From an uncultured Clostridium sp. (GTDB lineage: Bacteria; Bacillota_A; Clostridia; TANB77; CAG-508): a DNA stretch of 8,394 nucleotides. The notes below the pieces were generated by a model. That model had not been told where the DNA came from. It made no database searches and was given only the letters and a program-made list of their open reading frames with translations. The stretch covers positions 1 through 8,394 of the forward strand of contig CAMLYR010000064.1 of the NCBI GenBank assembly GCA_946491915.1, read 5' to 3'. Shown here piece by piece: positions 144-8,394 of this stretch (positions are counted from its first letter, which is position 1; every line of letters starts with the position of its first letter). The position numbers and the translations under genes were made by a program.

Positions 144-177
144 AAAAAGGGCTTACCCCATTATCGGGGTAAGCCCT
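144..177 (-). terminator. Rho-independent terminator, leftward
   Basis: A perfect 11-bp inverted repeat (149-159 with 166-176, plus an A-T pair at 148/177) encloses a six-base loop. On the minus strand the GC-rich hairpin is followed at once by five T residues (148 to 144), the classic intrinsic terminator pattern; the plus strand has no T tract after the stem, so the direction is leftward. No other good hairpin lies between it and the stop codon of the last operon gene at 463, so it probably ends the defence operon transcript with a 3' untranslated region of about 300 bases. It could instead belong to a mobile element inserted here, shielding that element's own gene from read-through. Confidence 0.85.
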
Positions 178-462
178 AAAAACACAATATCTTGTGGTAC
201 AATTTAGTTAAACCACTATATATGTTTACCTCGGACGTTTAATATTTGCTTGTATCGTTGGTATAGGTTGAGGGTCACCGCGAAATCGGTCAAAATACCA
301 CTTTTGAAGCAAAAAATACCACTTTTGAGCCCAATTTTAAGAAAAATACCACTCTTTATTAATTCGAATAGAAACAGACCACTAATTATGATTAAGCAAT
401 GTCCCGCTTATTTATTTTATATCATGAACATGTAAGATAAGTATTTTTTCATAAAGATTATA
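178..462. other. Non-coding region between last operon gene and terminator
   Basis: This stretch separates the stop codon of the last gene (463) from the terminator. Apart from the phased repeats at 292-386 it shows only short palindromic words (TCATGA and ACATGT around 422-433; GTGGT/ACCAC at 194-198 and 212-216) that are too weak to call terminators. A plus-strand open frame of 61 codons (250-435) runs through it, but much of its predicted peptide is just the translated repeats (three KIPL units), and it has no convincing ribosome binding site. I see no gene or RNA here that I can support. Confidence 0.6.
292..386. repeat. Phased ACCACT-centred repeats, possible insertion-sequence end
   Basis: Three clear copies of AAAATACCACTTTT-like sequence begin near 292, 313 and 343, and a degenerate fourth (AACAGACCACTAATTA) lies near 374-389. 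The shared ACCACT cores start at 297, 318, 348 and 378, so the spacings are 21, 30 and 30 bp, about two, three and three helical turns. Several short direct repeats near a terminus are typical of IS21-family elements, where the transposase binds them, and the sequence next to the first copy (on the minus strand GACCGATTTCGCGGTGACC) looks like such an element end to me from memory. No transposase gene is present in the window, so an element, if real, would extend left beyond the edge or be a remnant. Confidence 0.5.
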
Positions 463-2769
463 TTATAGACTTTTAGAAACTTGCTTATCATAAAGTTGGT
501 CATTGAGAAGTTTAAAGGCATCCTCAACAGTCTTGACCGGCTTATCATCATCTTTTAACGGAAGACCATTGTCATAGAATTGACCGTCGTGGTATTCAAT
601 ATCCACATCATTCCCATTGACTGCCTTAAGGAACGCGCGGGAACTGTCCTCCGTCAGGTACCCACGGCCACAATTATATTCAACATCTAAACCGTTATTT
701 TTCAGTCGACAATATAGTGCATAACTCATTGCTTCTACGTATTCTGCACTCAGTCTTTCTCTCTGATATAAGAGCACACGCTTATGCTTCCCCATGTCGA
801 TATTAAAACGATTTTTCCACATATACTCAAACAAACCGTTAATATGAACAAGATTATATAAAAGTTCACCAGTCCCCTCCTGTAAGCCGTAAAAATCGAA
901 ATCAGTTTGCCTTTGATAAGCATCAATGCAATCATTCAGCCATTTTTCCGTCTGCCCCCCTATAGAAACACCGCTTTTCTGATACTCTTTGAAAAACATT
1001 TTAAACACATCAAAGGACTTCTGCTCCCTCAAAAGCCTTCTCCATGTAAAGTATTGGTTTCCACCCTCAAAGAAGAAAGTATAACTTGAATTTGCCAAAA
1101 TGGAATAGTCACCGAAAGTAAGCAATGCCCTCTTAAGAAGGTCGTCATTTTCAGCTATCATATTTTTATTTAAAAGCAGCTGGATCGTCTCCCAATTTTT
1201 TACAAATGTTTGAACAGCATCTTTATGCGCCGTTTCATCAAGCGGAAGCGAGTCGTTATTAATTCCCTGTAATCGAAGTGCAAAACCTATCTGTCCATCA
1301 AAATATGTATCTCCCTCGGCTTGCTTGAGCGTCGGCTCCCAATCAGAACAATACTTTATTAGTTTGGCTTTCAGGATTTCTTCACTCACTTGATACCCAT
1401 CAAAGAATTTTATTGTGGGCACTGCGGCAAAATAACCGACTGTGTCTTTGCAGCACTCTCTTGCGATGGCTTCGACAGCATTGCATGAATTGCAAAACTT
1501 CTCATCTGTATCAATCTCCGTGTTCCTTACAAGCTTTGTAATAATGTTAATCCAACGGTCGAATGAAAGCAAATCATATTGCTCCATAACGACCGCATAT
1601 GCGGTGACTGCATACAAAATGACGCGTTCTTTACGTTCTGATTTTACTGCTTTATCAAAAACGGTGTCAAATAAGTTTTTGAGTCTGTCCCTATTGCTTT
1701 TATAGAGCCAAAGCATAAAATTAAATGTCGACTCTATCTTTCTTATGGATCCAGCGCCTGATACATTCAAGGTTTTGTCTTCGAAAATTTCGCGATAATT
1801 ATGAAAATTATAGAAGTCGCTGTTATTTAACACTTTTTCAATTTTAGCGTCAGTTTTTCTATTAGCTGACGACTGAGCAGGTAAAATACAATTAAGTAAC
1901 AACTGATGAAGCAACTTCAAATAATAATCGTCACACCTATCAGCAGGGTTTCCAAACGCTTCGGAACAGGAACACATGTTCCAGATAAGCGACATCCATT
2001 CCGTATCAGCCTGAAGCTCAAACTGCCCACAGAATTCCATATTAAAAATTTTATTGTGTTCGGGTTTCACAAGTGACTCGACATAGTCGAAGAGATCAGA
2101 CTTAAAAATTTCAAATTCGGTCAGCGGCTTTCCTCGCGCATTCATCTTTATATAGAGATCGTTTTCATTCCCCATATCATTGATGCTTAGCCCCATATAT
2201 GTAATCGGACAATCGTCTGCCATAAGCTTGTCTGCGATAGTATTATTTTTAAATAAATTATCAATCTTTTCAAGTACAACCAAGAATGAGGCAACTGACG
2301 GGTCACGTTCCCATGACGACACAAACCAAGCGGCATCTATGATAAAACTACTCAACTTATCATTACCATTTTCAAAATACTCAGGCAAATGATCTATAAG
2401 TTGCGCCAAAAAACGACGAGTTGTCTCTCGAGTATTATATTTAAAACAATGGAGTCGTTTTAGCTCTGCACTCTTTCCTTCTGCTGCAAACGCATATATA
2501 TGTAATAACAGAAGAAGCGTCAATCTCTGTTGCCCGTCAATTGGAATAAACTTATTATTATCAAGTTTTCCATATACATAGTTAAGATCAAGGATTTCCA
2601 TAGTGTCCAAAGCATTGGAAATATCATTAAGCAAACGATTGAGTGTAAATTCAATCTTTTCATCTCTCCTACCTTGAACATAATCTCGTTGAATAGCTGG
2701 TATATCAATTTCATTAACGCCCGACTGTGTAATAAAACGCCAAAAGCTTACTTTACTTCCGTTTGACAT
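463..2769 (-). CDS. DUF262 protein without nuclease domain (GmrS-like)
   Basis: A 768-aa cytoplasmic protein with an N-terminal DUF262 domain, the ParB/sulfiredoxin-like fold that binds and hydrolyses nucleotide in GmrSD and SspE restriction proteins. Visible hallmarks are IPAIQRDYVQGR (residues 23-34, the usual QRxY motif), IDGQQRLT (77-84), YNTRETTRRF (111-120) and KMNARGKPLTEFEIFK (208-223). These match the family motif order. The remaining ~500 residues have no motif I recognise; in particular there is no DUF1524/HNH signature (no EHxxP-like histidine followed by the GNL/N motifs), so it probably cannot cut DNA alone. The start overlaps the end of the DUF262-DUF1524 gene by 22 bp and has a perfect AAGGAGG seven bases ahead, indicating translational coupling. 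It is probably a sensor, NTPase or partner subunit of that neighbour. DUF262 assignment is firm; role is inferred. Confidence 0.93.
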   Translation of the reverse strand: MSNGSKVSFWRFITQSGVNEIDIPAIQRDYVQGRRDEKIEFTLNRLLNDISNALDTMEILDLNYVYGKLDNNKFIPIDGQQRLTLLLLLHIYAFAAEGKSAELKRLHCFKYNTRETTRRFLAQLIDHLPEYFENGNDKLSSFIIDAAWFVSSWERDPSVASFLVVLEKIDNLFKNNTIADKLMADDCPITYMGLSINDMGNENDLYIKMNARGKPLTEFEIFKSDLFDYVESLVKPEHNKIFNMEFCGQFELQADTEWMSLIWNMCSCSEAFGNPADRCDDYYLKLLHQLLLNCILPAQSSANRKTDAKIEKVLNNSDFYNFHNYREIFEDKTLNVSGAGSIRKIESTFNFMLWLYKSNRDRLKNLFDTVFDKAVKSERKERVILYAVTAYAVVMEQYDLLSFDRWINIITKLVRNTEIDTDEKFCNSCNAVEAIARECCKDTVGYFAAVPTIKFFDGYQVSEEILKAKLIKYCSDWEPTLKQAEGDTYFDGQIGFALRLQGINNDSLPLDETAHKDAVQTFVKNWETIQLLLNKNMIAENDDLLKRALLTFGDYSILANSSYTFFFEGGNQYFTWRRLLREQKSFDVFKMFFKEYQKSGVSIGGQTEKWLNDCIDAYQRQTDFDFYGLQEGTGELLYNLVHINGLFEYMWKNRFNIDMGKHKRVLLYQRERLSAEYVEAMSYALYCRLKNNGLDVEYNCGRGYLTEDSSRAFLKAVNGNDVDIEYHDGQFYDNGLPLKDDDKPVKTVEDAFKLLNDQLYDKQVSKSL

Positions 2770-4640
2770 ACTCGAGCCTCCTTAATCAACACTCGTTTAA
2801 TCTCATCCAAATAACATTCCGCATCAACGGTGTCCCAACGTTGCATGTTCTTTAATCCTACCTCATCGGAATACATTTTTAGGAATACATTTTTTGTGCA
2901 GACAGGAATAAAGACCTCCCCCTTATCCCTCTCAATAATCGTCTTCCGTTTGACCGCAAACAAAGCATTCTTATATGAGCGATTTGTCTCTGCATCCAAA
3001 AGGGCAAGATTCCCCAGCCCGTTTTCATTGAATTGACCGCACCTGTCGCATAATTTATTATACTCTTTAATAAATTCATCTGGTTTAATTCCAGTCGGAC
3101 ATTGTGTCATAAGCTTATCAATTTTGTCAACACCGTCATTATAACCAACAAATAAAAACTGCTCTTTAAGCTCACTTAGTATTTCCTTTTGAATGTCAGG
3201 CGTAGCGTTTATAAGTTCTTCGTCTTCTGCGCGCGCATGAATGTGCTCCACGTCCCAGCCTCGACTTTTCTTTTTATTGCCGACAGATGACGAAGTGGCG
3301 TTACCGCTACATACAAGAGTTGGATTCTTATACTCATGAAAGGAAAATCGATTACTTGTCTGGCTATTTATCATTGTATAGATATTAAAAAAAAGTAGAA
3401 CTATGCGGATATACTTTCTGTCCCCTGATTTATTATAATTAAGTTTATCCAAATCAACGCCCTTGAATACATCTTTAATCTTACTATCAATACTTTTTAA
3501 TATCTCTGACTTGCTCTTTGTCTGCGCTTCAGCAATCAACGGTTGAATTACATCGAATGGATTTGACGTTATAGCAATCAAAAAACCGATTTTATGATAG
3601 TACAAATTATTTTCATACCAAGAATGAAGCGTATCATGAATGCGCACAAGTTCCTCCCAAATTTCCGCTGCCTTAACTTGTGCTATCTGTGTGTTTTCGT
3701 TATTATTTTTACCATTTTCCTTAGCCTGATCGATAATTGCACTCACGACTAAAAACGAGAAAAGTCTGTCGCTTTTTATTAGTTTCTTCCCCTGTACTGC
3801 CGAGTTATTTACATTGGTAAGAGCAAAAAGTTTAAGAAGATAGTCTATTCGCGTCTCTAATGATGAATCCTCATTAGATATAAAATACCAGAAATTATCA
3901 TCATGTAACGATTGTTCGACAAAGTCCCACTCGACAGCAATCTTATCTCTCTGTGATTCACCAGAGTTATTGTTACACTGAGCCACGTCCGAACTCAAAA
4001 GAAGCGCCTTAAACAGTTCTGCATTTGTCAAAGGTATTTTACCCATATTCAGCTTAGTAAAGATCTCATTCGACTTTGCTCCGTCAGGAACCTGATACCA
4101 GATAAATTGTATGTAGGAGTGAATTTTTCGTTGCAATTCATAACGTACATCGTCTGCCCTAAGCTCATCAAACCGTTTAAACCATTCCCGAATAGTCTCT
4201 TTCGCCCTGTCAATATAATAATCGTCTATTTCACTACGATTGTTCGCATAGACGATGTCGTAAGGCAATTTATTGCTTTTGCCTTCATAACAAGCAGCCA
4301 GAATAAGAAGAACAGTCGTCAATCGCTGCTGTCCGTCAATCAGTTCCCAGACAGTATCTTCTTCACCAGTTGCATATGTTTGGCAGCTTAATTTTTTGCT
4401 TAACCTATTTCCGTCGTTCAATGGCGCACACTTTTTTACGACAAGGGGCTGAAGGCAATATCTCAAAACGTTGTTCTGGGTATCAAATTCATAAATATCT
4501 TCCAACAAGGCAACAACTTGGGCAGGTTCCCATCGGTATCCTCGCTGATACTCTTTAACAATAAACGTATTCCTTTGTAAAAATTTTGTCCCCGTACCAG
4601 AATCAATAACGACTCTGATCTCAATTTCAGATTCAGACAT
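2748..4640 (-). CDS. DUF262-DUF1524 fusion, GmrSD/SspE-like restriction protein
   Basis: A 630-aa cytoplasmic protein combining the two halves of GmrSD-type (type IV) restriction enzymes. The N-terminal DUF262 domain shows YQRGYRW (31-37), the nucleotide-binding signature IDGQQRLTT (101-109) and KLNMGKIPLTNAELFK (196-211). The C-terminal DUF1524 domain, an HNH-type nuclease, shows WDVEHIH (462-468; H466 the likely catalytic histidine), GLGNLALLD (541-549; N544), then N553 and KR at 564-565. All key residues appear intact and the length is normal for a fused protein. Characterised relatives (GmrSD, SspE) use nucleotide hydrolysis to control cleavage of DNA whose modification they recognise; the substrate here cannot be read from sequence. 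A roughly 75-residue stretch between H466 and N544 carries C514 and C531-x-x-C534. It sits 36 bp after the large nuclease-like gene and overlaps the DUF262-only gene by 22 bp, so the three probably act together. Domain calls are secure, anti-phage role very likely, target unknown. Confidence 0.95.
   Translation of the reverse strand: MSESEIEIRVVIDSGTGTKFLQRNTFIVKEYQRGYRWEPAQVVALLEDIYEFDTQNNVLRYCLQPLVVKKCAPLNDGNRLSKKLSCQTYATGEEDTVWELIDGQQRLTTVLLILAACYEGKSNKLPYDIVYANNRSEIDDYYIDRAKETIREWFKRFDELRADDVRYELQRKIHSYIQFIWYQVPDGAKSNEIFTKLNMGKIPLTNAELFKALLLSSDVAQCNNNSGESQRDKIAVEWDFVEQSLHDDNFWYFISNEDSSLETRIDYLLKLFALTNVNNSAVQGKKLIKSDRLFSFLVVSAIIDQAKENGKNNNENTQIAQVKAAEIWEELVRIHDTLHSWYENNLYYHKIGFLIAITSNPFDVIQPLIAEAQTKSKSEILKSIDSKIKDVFKGVDLDKLNYNKSGDRKYIRIVLLFFNIYTMINSQTSNRFSFHEYKNPTLVCSGNATSSSVGNKKKSRGWDVEHIHARAEDEELINATPDIQKEILSELKEQFLFVGYNDGVDKIDKLMTQCPTGIKPDEFIKEYNKLCDRCGQFNENGLGNLALLDAETNRSYKNALFAVKRKTIIERDKGEVFIPVCTKNVFLKMYSDEVGLKNMQRWDTVDAECYLDEIKRVLIKEARVCQTEVK
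2777..2783 (-). promoter_or_regulatory. Ribosome binding site of the DUF262-only gene
   Basis: A perfect AAGGAGG on the minus strand (2783 to 2777) stands seven bases before the ATG at 2769. It lies inside the last codons of the upstream gene, so ribosomes finishing that gene pass over it. It fixes the start codon and supports matched production of the two DUF262 proteins. Confidence 0.9.
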
Positions 4641-4652
4641 GATTTCAATTAT

Positions 4653-4658
4653 CTCCTT
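4653..4658 (-). promoter_or_regulatory. Ribosome binding site with long spacing
   Basis: AAGGAG on the minus strand (4658 to 4653) precedes the ATG at 4640 by 12 bases, longer than the usual 5-9. No ATG, GTG or TTG lies in the same frame between them, so the 4640 start stands, possibly with reduced translation compared with the downstream DUF262 gene. Confidence 0.7.
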
Positions 4659-4676
4659 CTTCAGTATTTTATCTAT

Positions 4677-7600
4677 TTAAACCTGAAACAATCTTTTAAG
4701 CTCATGAAAAGATATAATTTCAAAGCTTACCGATTTTATATCTGCATAAAACACTTTATTTGTAACCATATAATTTTTGATAGTGTATTTTTCGGCATTA
4801 CAAATACCAAATGCCTTTAAAATACAAGGTAAATGGTCTTCAAGATATGAAATCCTCCTAGCAAACTTCTCCCCTTTTTTGTTAGAAATAAAAAATGAAT
4901 ATTGATGATTATAATATTCTCTTAATGACCCAACCAAATTAAGAAATTTACATTCCAGGTTCCAAACTATATTATTAATACTATCAATAGCTAATACATC
5001 ATAGTCACCCAAATCTGTAGGATGACCGGCTTTTTTGTCAAACTTGTGAAGTTGTAAATTTCTTCTAACTATATAACCTTGCTCTTTCATAAAAGTCTCA
5101 AGATCGACTTCCATTCGTCTTTCGCATTCAGACTTCCATTTTTCAAGAAATTTTTTTAGATTTCCTAAACCATACTCATACGGCAAATAGAAATTTATTA
5201 TACCAAATTCCCACATCGTTTTTAATTCATATATAACAGCAGGAGAGAAAATTAATTTTTCACCTACTCTTACTACAGGTCGTACAATAAATTGGTTATC
5301 TCTACCTTCCCGTTGCCATATTGGAATAAAGTCTTCCTTCTTTCCATTAACAGTTTTAATTTTTAACTCATCAATTACTAAAAAACTTAGAGCATTTAAT
5401 ATTTCTTCTATCTCAACATCTGACAAATTACTTTTATCCGTTAACCAGTTCCTTATATCCTCCCTTATCTCTGCCGTAGACAAACTAAACACATCTGGAA
5501 ATTCTTCCGTTTTAAATGTAAAATTGAATTCTTTACTTAAATAATCTAATATAATAAATAACTTATCAAGCTTTATACCTGTATCAGAATAAAAGCATTT
5601 CATAGCCTGGTTAAACATATCCTTATCGTCCTTTAAATTAGGACGATAATCATCATTATCGTATGTCCTTCTATGCCTTTCTTTACTCAACCGTTGCTGC
5701 TCTTCCGATACAATCGTAGAAACTCTGAAATCATCTTCAATTTCAATCTTGACCTCAGCTAAATTGTAATGAGCATTATCCGAACCATCTTGCAATACCA
5801 TTAACCAATGTGAATAAGCAATCAAATACTTCATATCTTCTAAAGTCACCATTTTATTCCCATTGTGAGTAACTGCTAAGTTCGTTTCTATTAAATATAG
5901 AAGATCACGGATATTATCTTTATTCCGCTCTCTTATGTTAATTATATTTTTACCTGTTACCTCCTTAGCCATATCACTCATATTATTGTCGTTATTTATA
6001 GAATATCGTTTATAATTTAAATTTTTGTTATGAATATTGTAAGCCAATTCAGATAAAAGCAACTTATGTAAATCATATTTACTATATTCTGACACTGCAC
6101 TTTCAAAACGTGGAATTACAACCTGTTGTAACTTTCTAATTACATCTGTAGCTTCCTGAGCAGAATATGTTTTGCTCTCAATGTAAGCTTCTTTACAATC
6201 CTGTGCTATTAATTTTCTGACCTTTGCATAATACTCATCATTAATAATTATCCCACTATTATTTAGTGAATAATAGTATTTTAACTCAAATTGCAAAGCA
6301 GCAATATCTTTTTTATCTTTTCGATGAGCATAGATAGTTTGCTTTAAATTGTTAAAATCAATAAGATCAGTTTTTTCCATGCATGACAGCAATTCGACAA
6401 CACATTCACATTCCACCGATTTATCCTTAACTGAAAGCAGATCATTGAAGAGTTGACTTTCATTTACTGCATATCTTATAAATAAAATACCCTCATTAAT
6501 AGTGTAATCACTATAAATATATTTTCTGTTTTGGCGAAGAAAGCCCGTATTATCAACTGTTTCAGCATATTTTATAGGCATATACATTATACGAACGCCA
6601 TTAAAATCATATAATCCACACTTAATCAAAGCATCTTCAAATAATACAAAATTACGACAATTTATGTCTTCAATCATTCTTATAGCTTCATGCCTTGCAT
6701 CATATTTCTCGTTAATATCTTCAAATATTAAATTGAAAGTAAAAAATATATATGAATTAGCAACATTCCTATAATACCCTCCAAACCCCAAAACTGCGTC
6801 ATTAGCTAAAGTCTTAAAATATCCCTTATCATCATTCACAACACTCCAACAAAACGGATTATCAAATATTTTTTCGTAATGAGTAAATGGATACCATTTA
6901 TTTAAATCCAAATAATCTTCGAACACATCCCATTCAACCATATATGGTTCTGGAATTAGTATTGTTGCATCTAACGCCCCAGGAAACAGTTCCTTATTCT
7001 GTTTTATCCAGGCTTCAAATAGTACCGACAGCCCACCGAATAAAGGCTGTTCCCAATTGGACTTCCTAAATGATTGTATGAAATCGCATATATCTCTAAC
7101 ACATTTAGCCCTATATAAAATTGTTATCAAATCAAACATATATAGAGATGGTAAATTATTCACTTTTGATTTGAATACATTTTCCAAAATAATATGATTA
7201 TCATAAACTATTATGCTAATACCATCACATAATGAATAATCCCATACTCGACATTTACCAGTACTACTGAATTCAACTAATTTTAATTGCTTTTTAGACA
7301 CAATATCGTCAATGGTTTTAATAAGAGTATCGATATTTTTATTTTTTAATCTATCTTCATTTATAAAAAGAAGCGCCTTATCTCTATTACGTAATAAAAA
7401 ATCAAATAAGACCTCTTCGACTATCTTATGTTTTTCCAAATCAGAAACTACTCCTACTTGGATAAGCAAATTATCAGATTTGGGATTTAAATCAAAATTA
7501 CTACATAATGTTTGATACAAAACATAATCAGCAATCTGACTCTGTTTTTCTTGAGAGATTTCAACACCACGATACAAAATATGGAAAGCATCAATTATAA

Positions 7601-8297
7601 TGCTAGGATTGAATAGCGGATACAGTTTTTCCTTTACTAAAATGAAATGCGTCTCTTCAATTTTTTCTCTATTGGCGCATGATAAAAAATTAAGCTTAGA
7701 ATCTAGTGTTAAATCACAAATCATATACCATTGTCTGCAATCATTAAAAAAAGCTTCAGTAGGTTTATGTAATGTAAATATATCTTTGGGGCCTTCGTAT
7801 AAATTTGTATCCTTCAACTGTTCCACCATATTTTTTACATACAGTAAAACATTTTTCATCGAATCTATTATGTTTAACGATTTTGATAGAGCATATAGAC
7901 TCTGCATAATAGGGAATACAAAGCCATGTCCAGTTCCTAAAAACACAGGAAAAAATTCTTCATCAAATGATATTTTAATATCTCCAAAATCTGGAGTAAT
8001 TTCATCATTATATACAGAATTTAATTTAGGTTTCAGACTTTCAAAAAAAATACAAAATTCACCATATGACTTAATGAGTTTAGTACCACCTTTGCCACAT
8101 ATTTTTAAAGCATAATTTAGTGAAAGATAAAATTCCAAATGAGCTCTATTATATCTCCACGCATTAATACAAAAAATTGCATTACACAAATCAAAATAGT
8201 CATATTCAGAAAAGCAAACTGCAAGTTCTTTTGACAGCTCAACATCATACAATATATCTTCAGAATAATTATTTTTTTGCGAATCCATTAAATTCAT
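4677..8297 (-). CDS. Large unknown protein with C-terminal PD-(D/E)XK nuclease-like domain
   Basis: A 1206-aa protein whose first ~1000 residues I do not recognise. The C-terminal ~170 residues look like a PD-(D/E)XK nuclease: an acidic helix (about 1058-1074), a GYIVRRNLQL strand (1074-1083), then GDYDVLAID (1097-1105) and VWNLECK (1111-1117). This gives the expected D1100 ... E1115-x-K1117 metal-binding triad with hydrophobic strands around it, followed by a helical and strand region to the end, as in Mrr/Holliday-resolvase-type folds. I see no Walker A, helicase, methyltransferase, signal peptide or membrane segment, so it is probably cytoplasmic and not itself a motor. The middle (about 840-900) is highly charged and may be a linker. 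It begins 20 bp after an upstream partial gene and ends 36 bp before the DUF262-DUF1524 gene. Its DNA is more AT-rich (27-30% GC in two hand-counted lines) than the two DUF262 genes (35-45% in four lines). The nuclease fold is inferred from motif; function is probably effector or target recognition. Confidence 0.9.
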   Translation of the reverse strand: MNLMDSQKNNYSEDILYDVELSKELAVCFSEYDYFDLCNAIFCINAWRYNRAHLEFYLSLNYALKICGKGGTKLIKSYGEFCIFFESLKPKLNSVYNDEITPDFGDIKISFDEEFFPVFLGTGHGFVFPIMQSLYALSKSLNIIDSMKNVLLYVKNMVEQLKDTNLYEGPKDIFTLHKPTEAFFNDCRQWYMICDLTLDSKLNFLSCANREKIEETHFILVKEKLYPLFNPSIIIDAFHILYRGVEISQEKQSQIADYVLYQTLCSNFDLNPKSDNLLIQVGVVSDLEKHKIVEEVLFDFLLRNRDKALLFINEDRLKNKNIDTLIKTIDDIVSKKQLKLVEFSSTGKCRVWDYSLCDGISIIVYDNHIILENVFKSKVNNLPSLYMFDLITILYRAKCVRDICDFIQSFRKSNWEQPLFGGLSVLFEAWIKQNKELFPGALDATILIPEPYMVEWDVFEDYLDLNKWYPFTHYEKIFDNPFCWSVVNDDKGYFKTLANDAVLGFGGYYRNVANSYIFFTFNLIFEDINEKYDARHEAIRMIEDINCRNFVLFEDALIKCGLYDFNGVRIMYMPIKYAETVDNTGFLRQNRKYIYSDYTINEGILFIRYAVNESQLFNDLLSVKDKSVECECVVELLSCMEKTDLIDFNNLKQTIYAHRKDKKDIAALQFELKYYYSLNNSGIIINDEYYAKVRKLIAQDCKEAYIESKTYSAQEATDVIRKLQQVVIPRFESAVSEYSKYDLHKLLLSELAYNIHNKNLNYKRYSINNDNNMSDMAKEVTGKNIINIRERNKDNIRDLLYLIETNLAVTHNGNKMVTLEDMKYLIAYSHWLMVLQDGSDNAHYNLAEVKIEIEDDFRVSTIVSEEQQRLSKERHRRTYDNDDYRPNLKDDKDMFNQAMKCFYSDTGIKLDKLFIILDYLSKEFNFTFKTEEFPDVFSLSTAEIREDIRNWLTDKSNLSDVEIEEILNALSFLVIDELKIKTVNGKKEDFIPIWQREGRDNQFIVRPVVRVGEKLIFSPAVIYELKTMWEFGIINFYLPYEYGLGNLKKFLEKWKSECERRMEVDLETFMKEQGYIVRRNLQLHKFDKKAGHPTDLGDYDVLAIDSINNIVWNLECKFLNLVGSLREYYNHQYSFFISNKKGEKFARRISYLEDHLPCILKAFGICNAEKYTIKNYMVTNKVFYADIKSVSFEIISFHELKRLFQV

Positions 8298-8302
8298 AGA
8301 AA

Positions 8303-8308
8303 TCCTCT
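8303..8308 (-). promoter_or_regulatory. Ribosome binding site of the large nuclease-like gene
   Basis: AGAGGA on the minus strand (8308 to 8303) stands five bases before the ATG at 8297. A second in-frame ATG at 8288 is 14 bases from this site, so the first is preferred. The site fills the 20-bp gap after the upstream stop codon, the usual arrangement inside an operon. Confidence 0.75.
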
Positions 8309-8317
8309 CATCTATTA

Positions 8318-8394
8318 TTAAAAATAAACTGCAACTGTTAAATCACTCCACTGGTTTTCGCGAAGCATTTCTTTGCGCTTTTTGCGAAAAGCTA
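8318..8394 (-). CDS. C-terminal end of an upstream operon gene (partial)
   Basis: On the minus strand a frame open from the window edge encodes about 24 residues ending in ENQWSDLTVAVYF and stops with TAA at 8320-8318. The charged, helix-like run before it (AFRKKRKEMLRE) and ordinary codons look like the tail of a real protein. The stop is followed, after 20 bp containing a ribosome binding site, by the ATG of the 1206-aa gene, which is typical operon spacing. Two other frames are also open over part of this short stretch, so coding potential alone does not decide; the position of the stop is the main argument. Too little is present to assign a family. Confidence 0.55.
   Translation of the reverse strand, partial: AFRKKRKEMLRENQWSDLTVAVYF

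Follow-up and report, generated by a model that had tools for sequence, protein, structure and literature searches.

The window analysed here, a stretch of 8,394 nucleotides from an uncultured Clostridium sp. (contig CAMLYR010000064.1), most probably holds defence genes that an integrative element carries as cargo and that form two separate systems, an Upx-like large protein and a pair of DUF262 proteins; we put the probability of this reading at roughly 0.82. On the minus strand, the frames run from the C-terminal end of a large recombinase of the serine type, whose gene is cut by the window edge (8318..8394), through the large protein (P0001; 4677..8297, 1206 amino acids, aa) and protein B, with DUF262 and a DUF1524 domain of the His-Me/HNH type (2748..4640, 630 aa), to protein A, with DUF262 and no recognised nuclease (463..2769, 768 aa), whose first 22 bases are shared with the end of B. 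The intergenic distances in this direction are 20, 36 and -22 bases, and an initial annotation of the DNA had already placed the same four consecutive frames, one of them partial, with the same gaps. Homologue searches with the large protein, A and B, in which about 8,000 candidates were scored, returned at least 17 homologues of the large protein (13 with at least 89% coverage) and, at E <= 0.001, at least 3,073 of A and at least 7,873 of B. Since each of the three full frames has homologues over its entire or nearly entire length, the frames are real genes and not chance. The defence character that the initial annotation gave the locus appears right, judging by family relations.

Separate occurrence of the large gene and the pair

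The large gene adjoins a DUF262 pair in two of seven loci and stands without it in the other five (window counted; flanks of about 6-23 kb), and 18 of 20 pair loci are without the large gene (flanks of limited length). The large gene and the pair each occur without the other, and therefore one three-part system, which the initial annotation had proposed as an undescribed multi-subunit system, is unsupported. Large-gene homologues stand beside DUF262 pairs only in the window and in a near-identical locus, L004, close to the complete absence elsewhere that the annotation had itself named as counting against its proposal. The annotation did not recognise the set as a named system; its halves belong to named kinds, Upx (9wuf) and paired DUF262 type IV restriction.

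Locus L004, on a metagenome-assembled contig from Clostridia (CALVPS010000018.1), repeats the window's gene order from the recombinase through the large gene and B to A, and is 95.6% identical over window positions 8394 to 264; the two represent a single lineage and were treated as a single observation. The tail peptide of the window's partial frame, AFRKKRKEMLRENQWSDL, is shared with frame L004:1-1080, which matches PF07508 Recombinase in Pfam (E 7.2e-11). The partial frame is therefore a serine-type recombinase and no fourth member of a defence operon, as it had first been taken to be. The cargo would sit directly behind the recombinase of its element, and defence genes packed closely behind a recombinase need not be one system.

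To place the large gene in other genomes we used its protein profile in 1,609 overlapping look-ups, all around Clostridia centres. Matches at E <= 0.001 occurred in 3/391, 1/70, 3/251 and 3/396 genomes, and at E <= 1e-20 in 2/398 and 1/103 (overlapping draws). Five genomes hold a full-length large gene, namely G001 (L004), G217 (L010), G611 (L034), G890 (L039) and G756 (L040), and three hold pieces only (G110, G502, G1176). Left out of the seven loci were G110 (100 C-terminal residues), G502 (a fragment with a stop) and L045 (a fusion at a contig end). In L010 the large gene stands by itself at an element's edge and the next gene has RepA_N; it also stands alone in L039 and L040, in the latter just after a tRNA-Val. 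In L034 an AlwI-type endonuclease gene (PF09491, E 9.6e-70) and a D12 methyltransferase gene (PF02086, E 6.2e-67) lie directly upstream on the same strand (L034:13645-17771). On the Lactococcus plasmid pFI430 (L001:9838-14568), a relative in two pieces of 218 and 892 aa, both annotated as hypothetical proteins, flanks an IS981 transposase gene, and there is no DUF262 pair. In the window the large gene has a G+C content of 0.294 and the pair one of 0.38; in L010 the gene has 0.308, in surroundings of 0.38-0.40, and in L034 it has 0.317 against 0.42. Among phage records, the large protein had no match at E <= 1e-5. At the contig end in L045 (L045:111-1487), the N-terminal part of a large protein is fused behind an apparent type I HsdM methylase start, either by deletion or as an assembly chimera.

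The Upx-like large protein

The name upx stands for an uncharacterised (P)D-(D/E)XK defence gene. The large protein is a divergent Upx-type member with a C-terminal PD-(D/E)XK active site, and its whole-protein fold is that of the Upx structure 9wuf in the PDB, which it matches over its full length. Its family profile finds 9wuf at E 4e-6, as the sole match among 177,635 distinct sequences. The motif GDYDV...ExK (4947..5009, minus strand, residues 1097-1117) aligns in the profile alignment to GDIDLLA...IECK of 9wuf, and D1098, D1100, E1115 and K1117 are invariant in all 17 aligned large-protein sequences, which bears out the PD-(D/E)XK fold first proposed at this end of the protein. Alike in whole fold and C-terminal domain, the large protein differs from Upx in sequence (about 12% identity), in a SEC-C motif added in some of its relatives and in having no PADLOC match. 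A further difference is that its family is seen here in Clostridia genomes and on a Lactococcus plasmid. We found no match for the large protein above the Pfam cut-off, and none in PADLOC, NCBIfam or PHROGs. This suggests that Upx-type proteins reach past one current defence-model library, into mobile elements of Clostridia and Lactococcus.

In the available part of a Pseudomonas survey, a table lists Upx among the nucleic-acid-degrading antiphage systems and credits it to Gao et al. 2020 (PMC10855318), and the portion seen of a second survey locates nearly all Upx in a single hotspot for genomic islands (PMC12629846). A literature search for 9wuf or for a cryo-electron microscopy structure of Upx returned no relevant paper. 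From these family relations we infer that the protein of about 1200 aa acts as a single-protein system, in which sensing of infection or target binding most likely falls to the long N-terminal part, and the cutting of nucleic acid most likely to the C-terminal PD-(D/E)XK domain.

Some relatives carry a SEC-C metal-binding motif at the N-terminus that the window copy does not have, namely P0015, L010:10165-13896 (by Pfam) and L040:9092-12808 (by N-terminal sequence). The PADLOC matches of P0015 cover residues 2-45 only, where this motif lies, and P0019 and P0020 have weak PADLOC matches to DrmC (E 0.04-0.05).

The DUF262 pair

Both proteins of the pair match PF03235 (DUF262) in Pfam, B at E 1.3e-28 and A at E 1.2e-18, and the QR and DGQQR motifs are invariant in both. 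The FxxxN motif is present as such in B and reads YIKMN in A, with Y for F. The His-Me nuclease core of B, WDVEHIHAR ... GLGNLALLDAETNRSYKN, lies at 2967..3257 on the minus strand; all 17 aligned sequences, among them that of the window, share W462, E465, H466, N544 and N558 without exception, and PF07510 (DUF1524) scores 22.5 bits, 0.5 below the Pfam cut-off of 23. DUF262, the EH and N residues and this score together confirm the fused DUF262-DUF1524 protein of the initial annotation. The DUF262 partner that it described corresponds to A, which has PF03235 and no recognised nuclease (no PF07510 at E <= 1). Conservation of A is weak in the last third. The model of A matches SspE, DndI and BrxU within residues 1-465 only, so that the structural comparison bears on these residues, with a VIA root-mean-square deviation (rmsd) of 10-15, and a Foldseek search by itself returned nothing significant for A; rows missing from the VIA lists were not counted as a sign of a new fold.

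The B-then-A adjacency and order are constant in all 20 pair loci, in one of which A is shorter (L019, 522 aa) and in another cut at the contig end (L027). In viral contigs the A alignment found 12 loci and the B alignment two, and neither the large protein, its alignment nor A as query found any; the counts omit the B-alignment loci L042 and L043, which lie on contigs already represented by L017 and L027. Of 15 plasmid records matching A we fetched the two best, L002 and L003, both annotated with two DUF262 genes. Of ten Escherichia coli places listed for the pair, only H35 was fetched, and at least 80% of the pair query is present in 7 of 5,426 complete E. coli genomes. In L046:8982-13245, from E. 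coli, a low-G+C DUF262 pair lies between tRNA-Leu and yecA. These loci define a compact, widespread two-gene DUF262 module of constant order, present also in a few E. coli genomes.

Two studied systems are close in design, each compared here through the available part of its description. TgvAB of Vibrio cholerae VPI-2 consists of two DUF262 proteins with DUF1524 in TgvB only, both required against phages with hypermodified DNA (PMC11411939), and shares with our pair the adjacent DUF262 genes, DUF1524 in one of them only, and QR and DGQQR in both. GmrS1/GmrSD2 of E. coli ECOR17 is an unequal DUF262 doublet that restricts T-even phages and requires both genes (PMC12373910); it shares the unequal doublet and the EH active-site pair in the nuclease-bearing protein. 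However, tgvA precedes tgvB, inside a type I restriction-modification (RM) operon, and gmrS1 precedes gmrSD2, whereas B comes first in 20 of 20 loci here; the comparison of A with TgvA covers the DUF262 domain. Because of this reversed order we say that the pair works like these systems and do not claim membership. SspE, DndI and BrxU differ in being single DUF262-DUF1524 chains, where the module here has two, A without a recognised nuclease. DUF262 genes often neighbour GmrSD genes, according to the part seen of Machnicka et al. 2015 (PMC4619093).

By its families, the pair would be an autonomous two-protein restriction module directed at phage, with A probably translationally coupled behind B. 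The DUF262 domains of A and B would bind and hydrolyse nucleoside triphosphate and probably read modified phage DNA; A would be the non-cutting partner that the module needs, and the His-Me domain of B would cut.

Competing explanations, repeats and nearby features

The tight packing of large gene, B and A (gaps of 36 and -22 bases) and their joint presence in the window and L004 make co-transcription, and some cooperation in this lineage, possible. It is nevertheless very unlikely that the large protein and the DUF262 pair cooperate in this lineage as one three-protein system with two cutting sites. The same close order in the window and L004 speaks for it, as does a deleted relative, P0009, that joins the large gene to B in this order, but all three belong to one lineage (93-97% identity). 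The five of seven and 18 of 20 loci in which one part lacks the other argue against it, as does the G+C content of the large gene and the pair, which differs by nearly 9 points. More indirectly, the large protein has a relative, P0005, at 81% identity, and no pair relative stands at this level among the matches listed: those of A fall from 96% to 67% and those of B start at 64%, the fused P0009 aside. An exchangeable Upx-like partner, adding a second nuclease to varied restriction modules (in the window and L004 a DUF262 pair, in L034 the D12 and AlwI-type genes, in L045 perhaps type I RM) and now forming a composite system with two cutting sites here, strikes us as highly improbable. That the large protein serves the mobile element, in competition between elements or DNA processing, rather than acting against phage, is improbable too. 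Its gene does lie behind a recombinase, beside RepA_N, on plasmid pFI430, and next to a tRNA where relaxase-like and recombinase-like frames also occur; its neighbours, however, include the D12 methyltransferase, the AlwI-type endonuclease and the window's DUF262 restriction genes, and its fold is that of Upx, an antiphage system in the survey table (PMC10855318, as far as available). B could also be an ordinary single-protein GmrSD enzyme, with A a separate regulator or decoy. We think this unlikely, although it is compatible with the rest of our reading and although GmrSD and BrxU, as far as their descriptions were available, likewise hold DUF262 and a His-Me core in one chain. B and A are adjacent and in the same order in 20 of 20 loci, and the studied unequal pairs require both proteins in the parts seen of their reports (PMC11411939, PMC12373910).

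Besides this packing, several observations weigh against two separate systems with an Upx-type protein as one of them. The sample amounts to seven large-gene loci with the flanks given above, and in L039 the large gene, at a G+C content of 0.44, is no different from its neighbours to one side (0.42-0.45), so its low G+C is not universal. On the side of the pair, the B and A matches in one of the 15 plasmid records (NZ_CP136442.1) lie about 1.4 kb apart, and in L046 a gene fragment and the gene of an IS200/IS605 transposase come before the E. coli pair. The profile match to 9wuf consists of two stretches, each insignificant singly (i-Evalues 0.094 and 0.2), and P0018 and P0019 as single-sequence queries matched no solved structure. 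The low identity to Upx, together with an rmsd of 9.3 (VIA) or 11.9 (Foldseek), makes the relation remote. PADLOC 2.0.0 gave no match for the large protein, and the presence of an Upx model in that release is not established.

The sequence AAAATACCACTTTTGA, together with a variant, forms three direct repeats of 16 bases at 292..358 (no strand), spaced 21 and 30 bases, just before the similarity to L004 stops; L004 has counterparts of them, and they perhaps mark the element end. The block common to both loci does not reach a terminator-like hairpin past the last gene (148..177, minus strand; a pattern match), which has a 13-pair stem followed by a T-rich tail. The window has 7 such patterns, where shuffled sequence gives 3.8 +/- 2.0, and Rfam found nothing above its gathering scores. 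The P0009 relative, a protein of 811 aa from a 188,775-base contig, runs from residues 1-603 of the large protein straight into B, of which it keeps residues 423-630; measured against the window, either 3,114 bases were deleted in frame or the join is an artefact of assembly. Just past the shared block, the 430-aa protein of L004:9361-10653 carries a TIR and a methyltransferase domain fused in a single chain.
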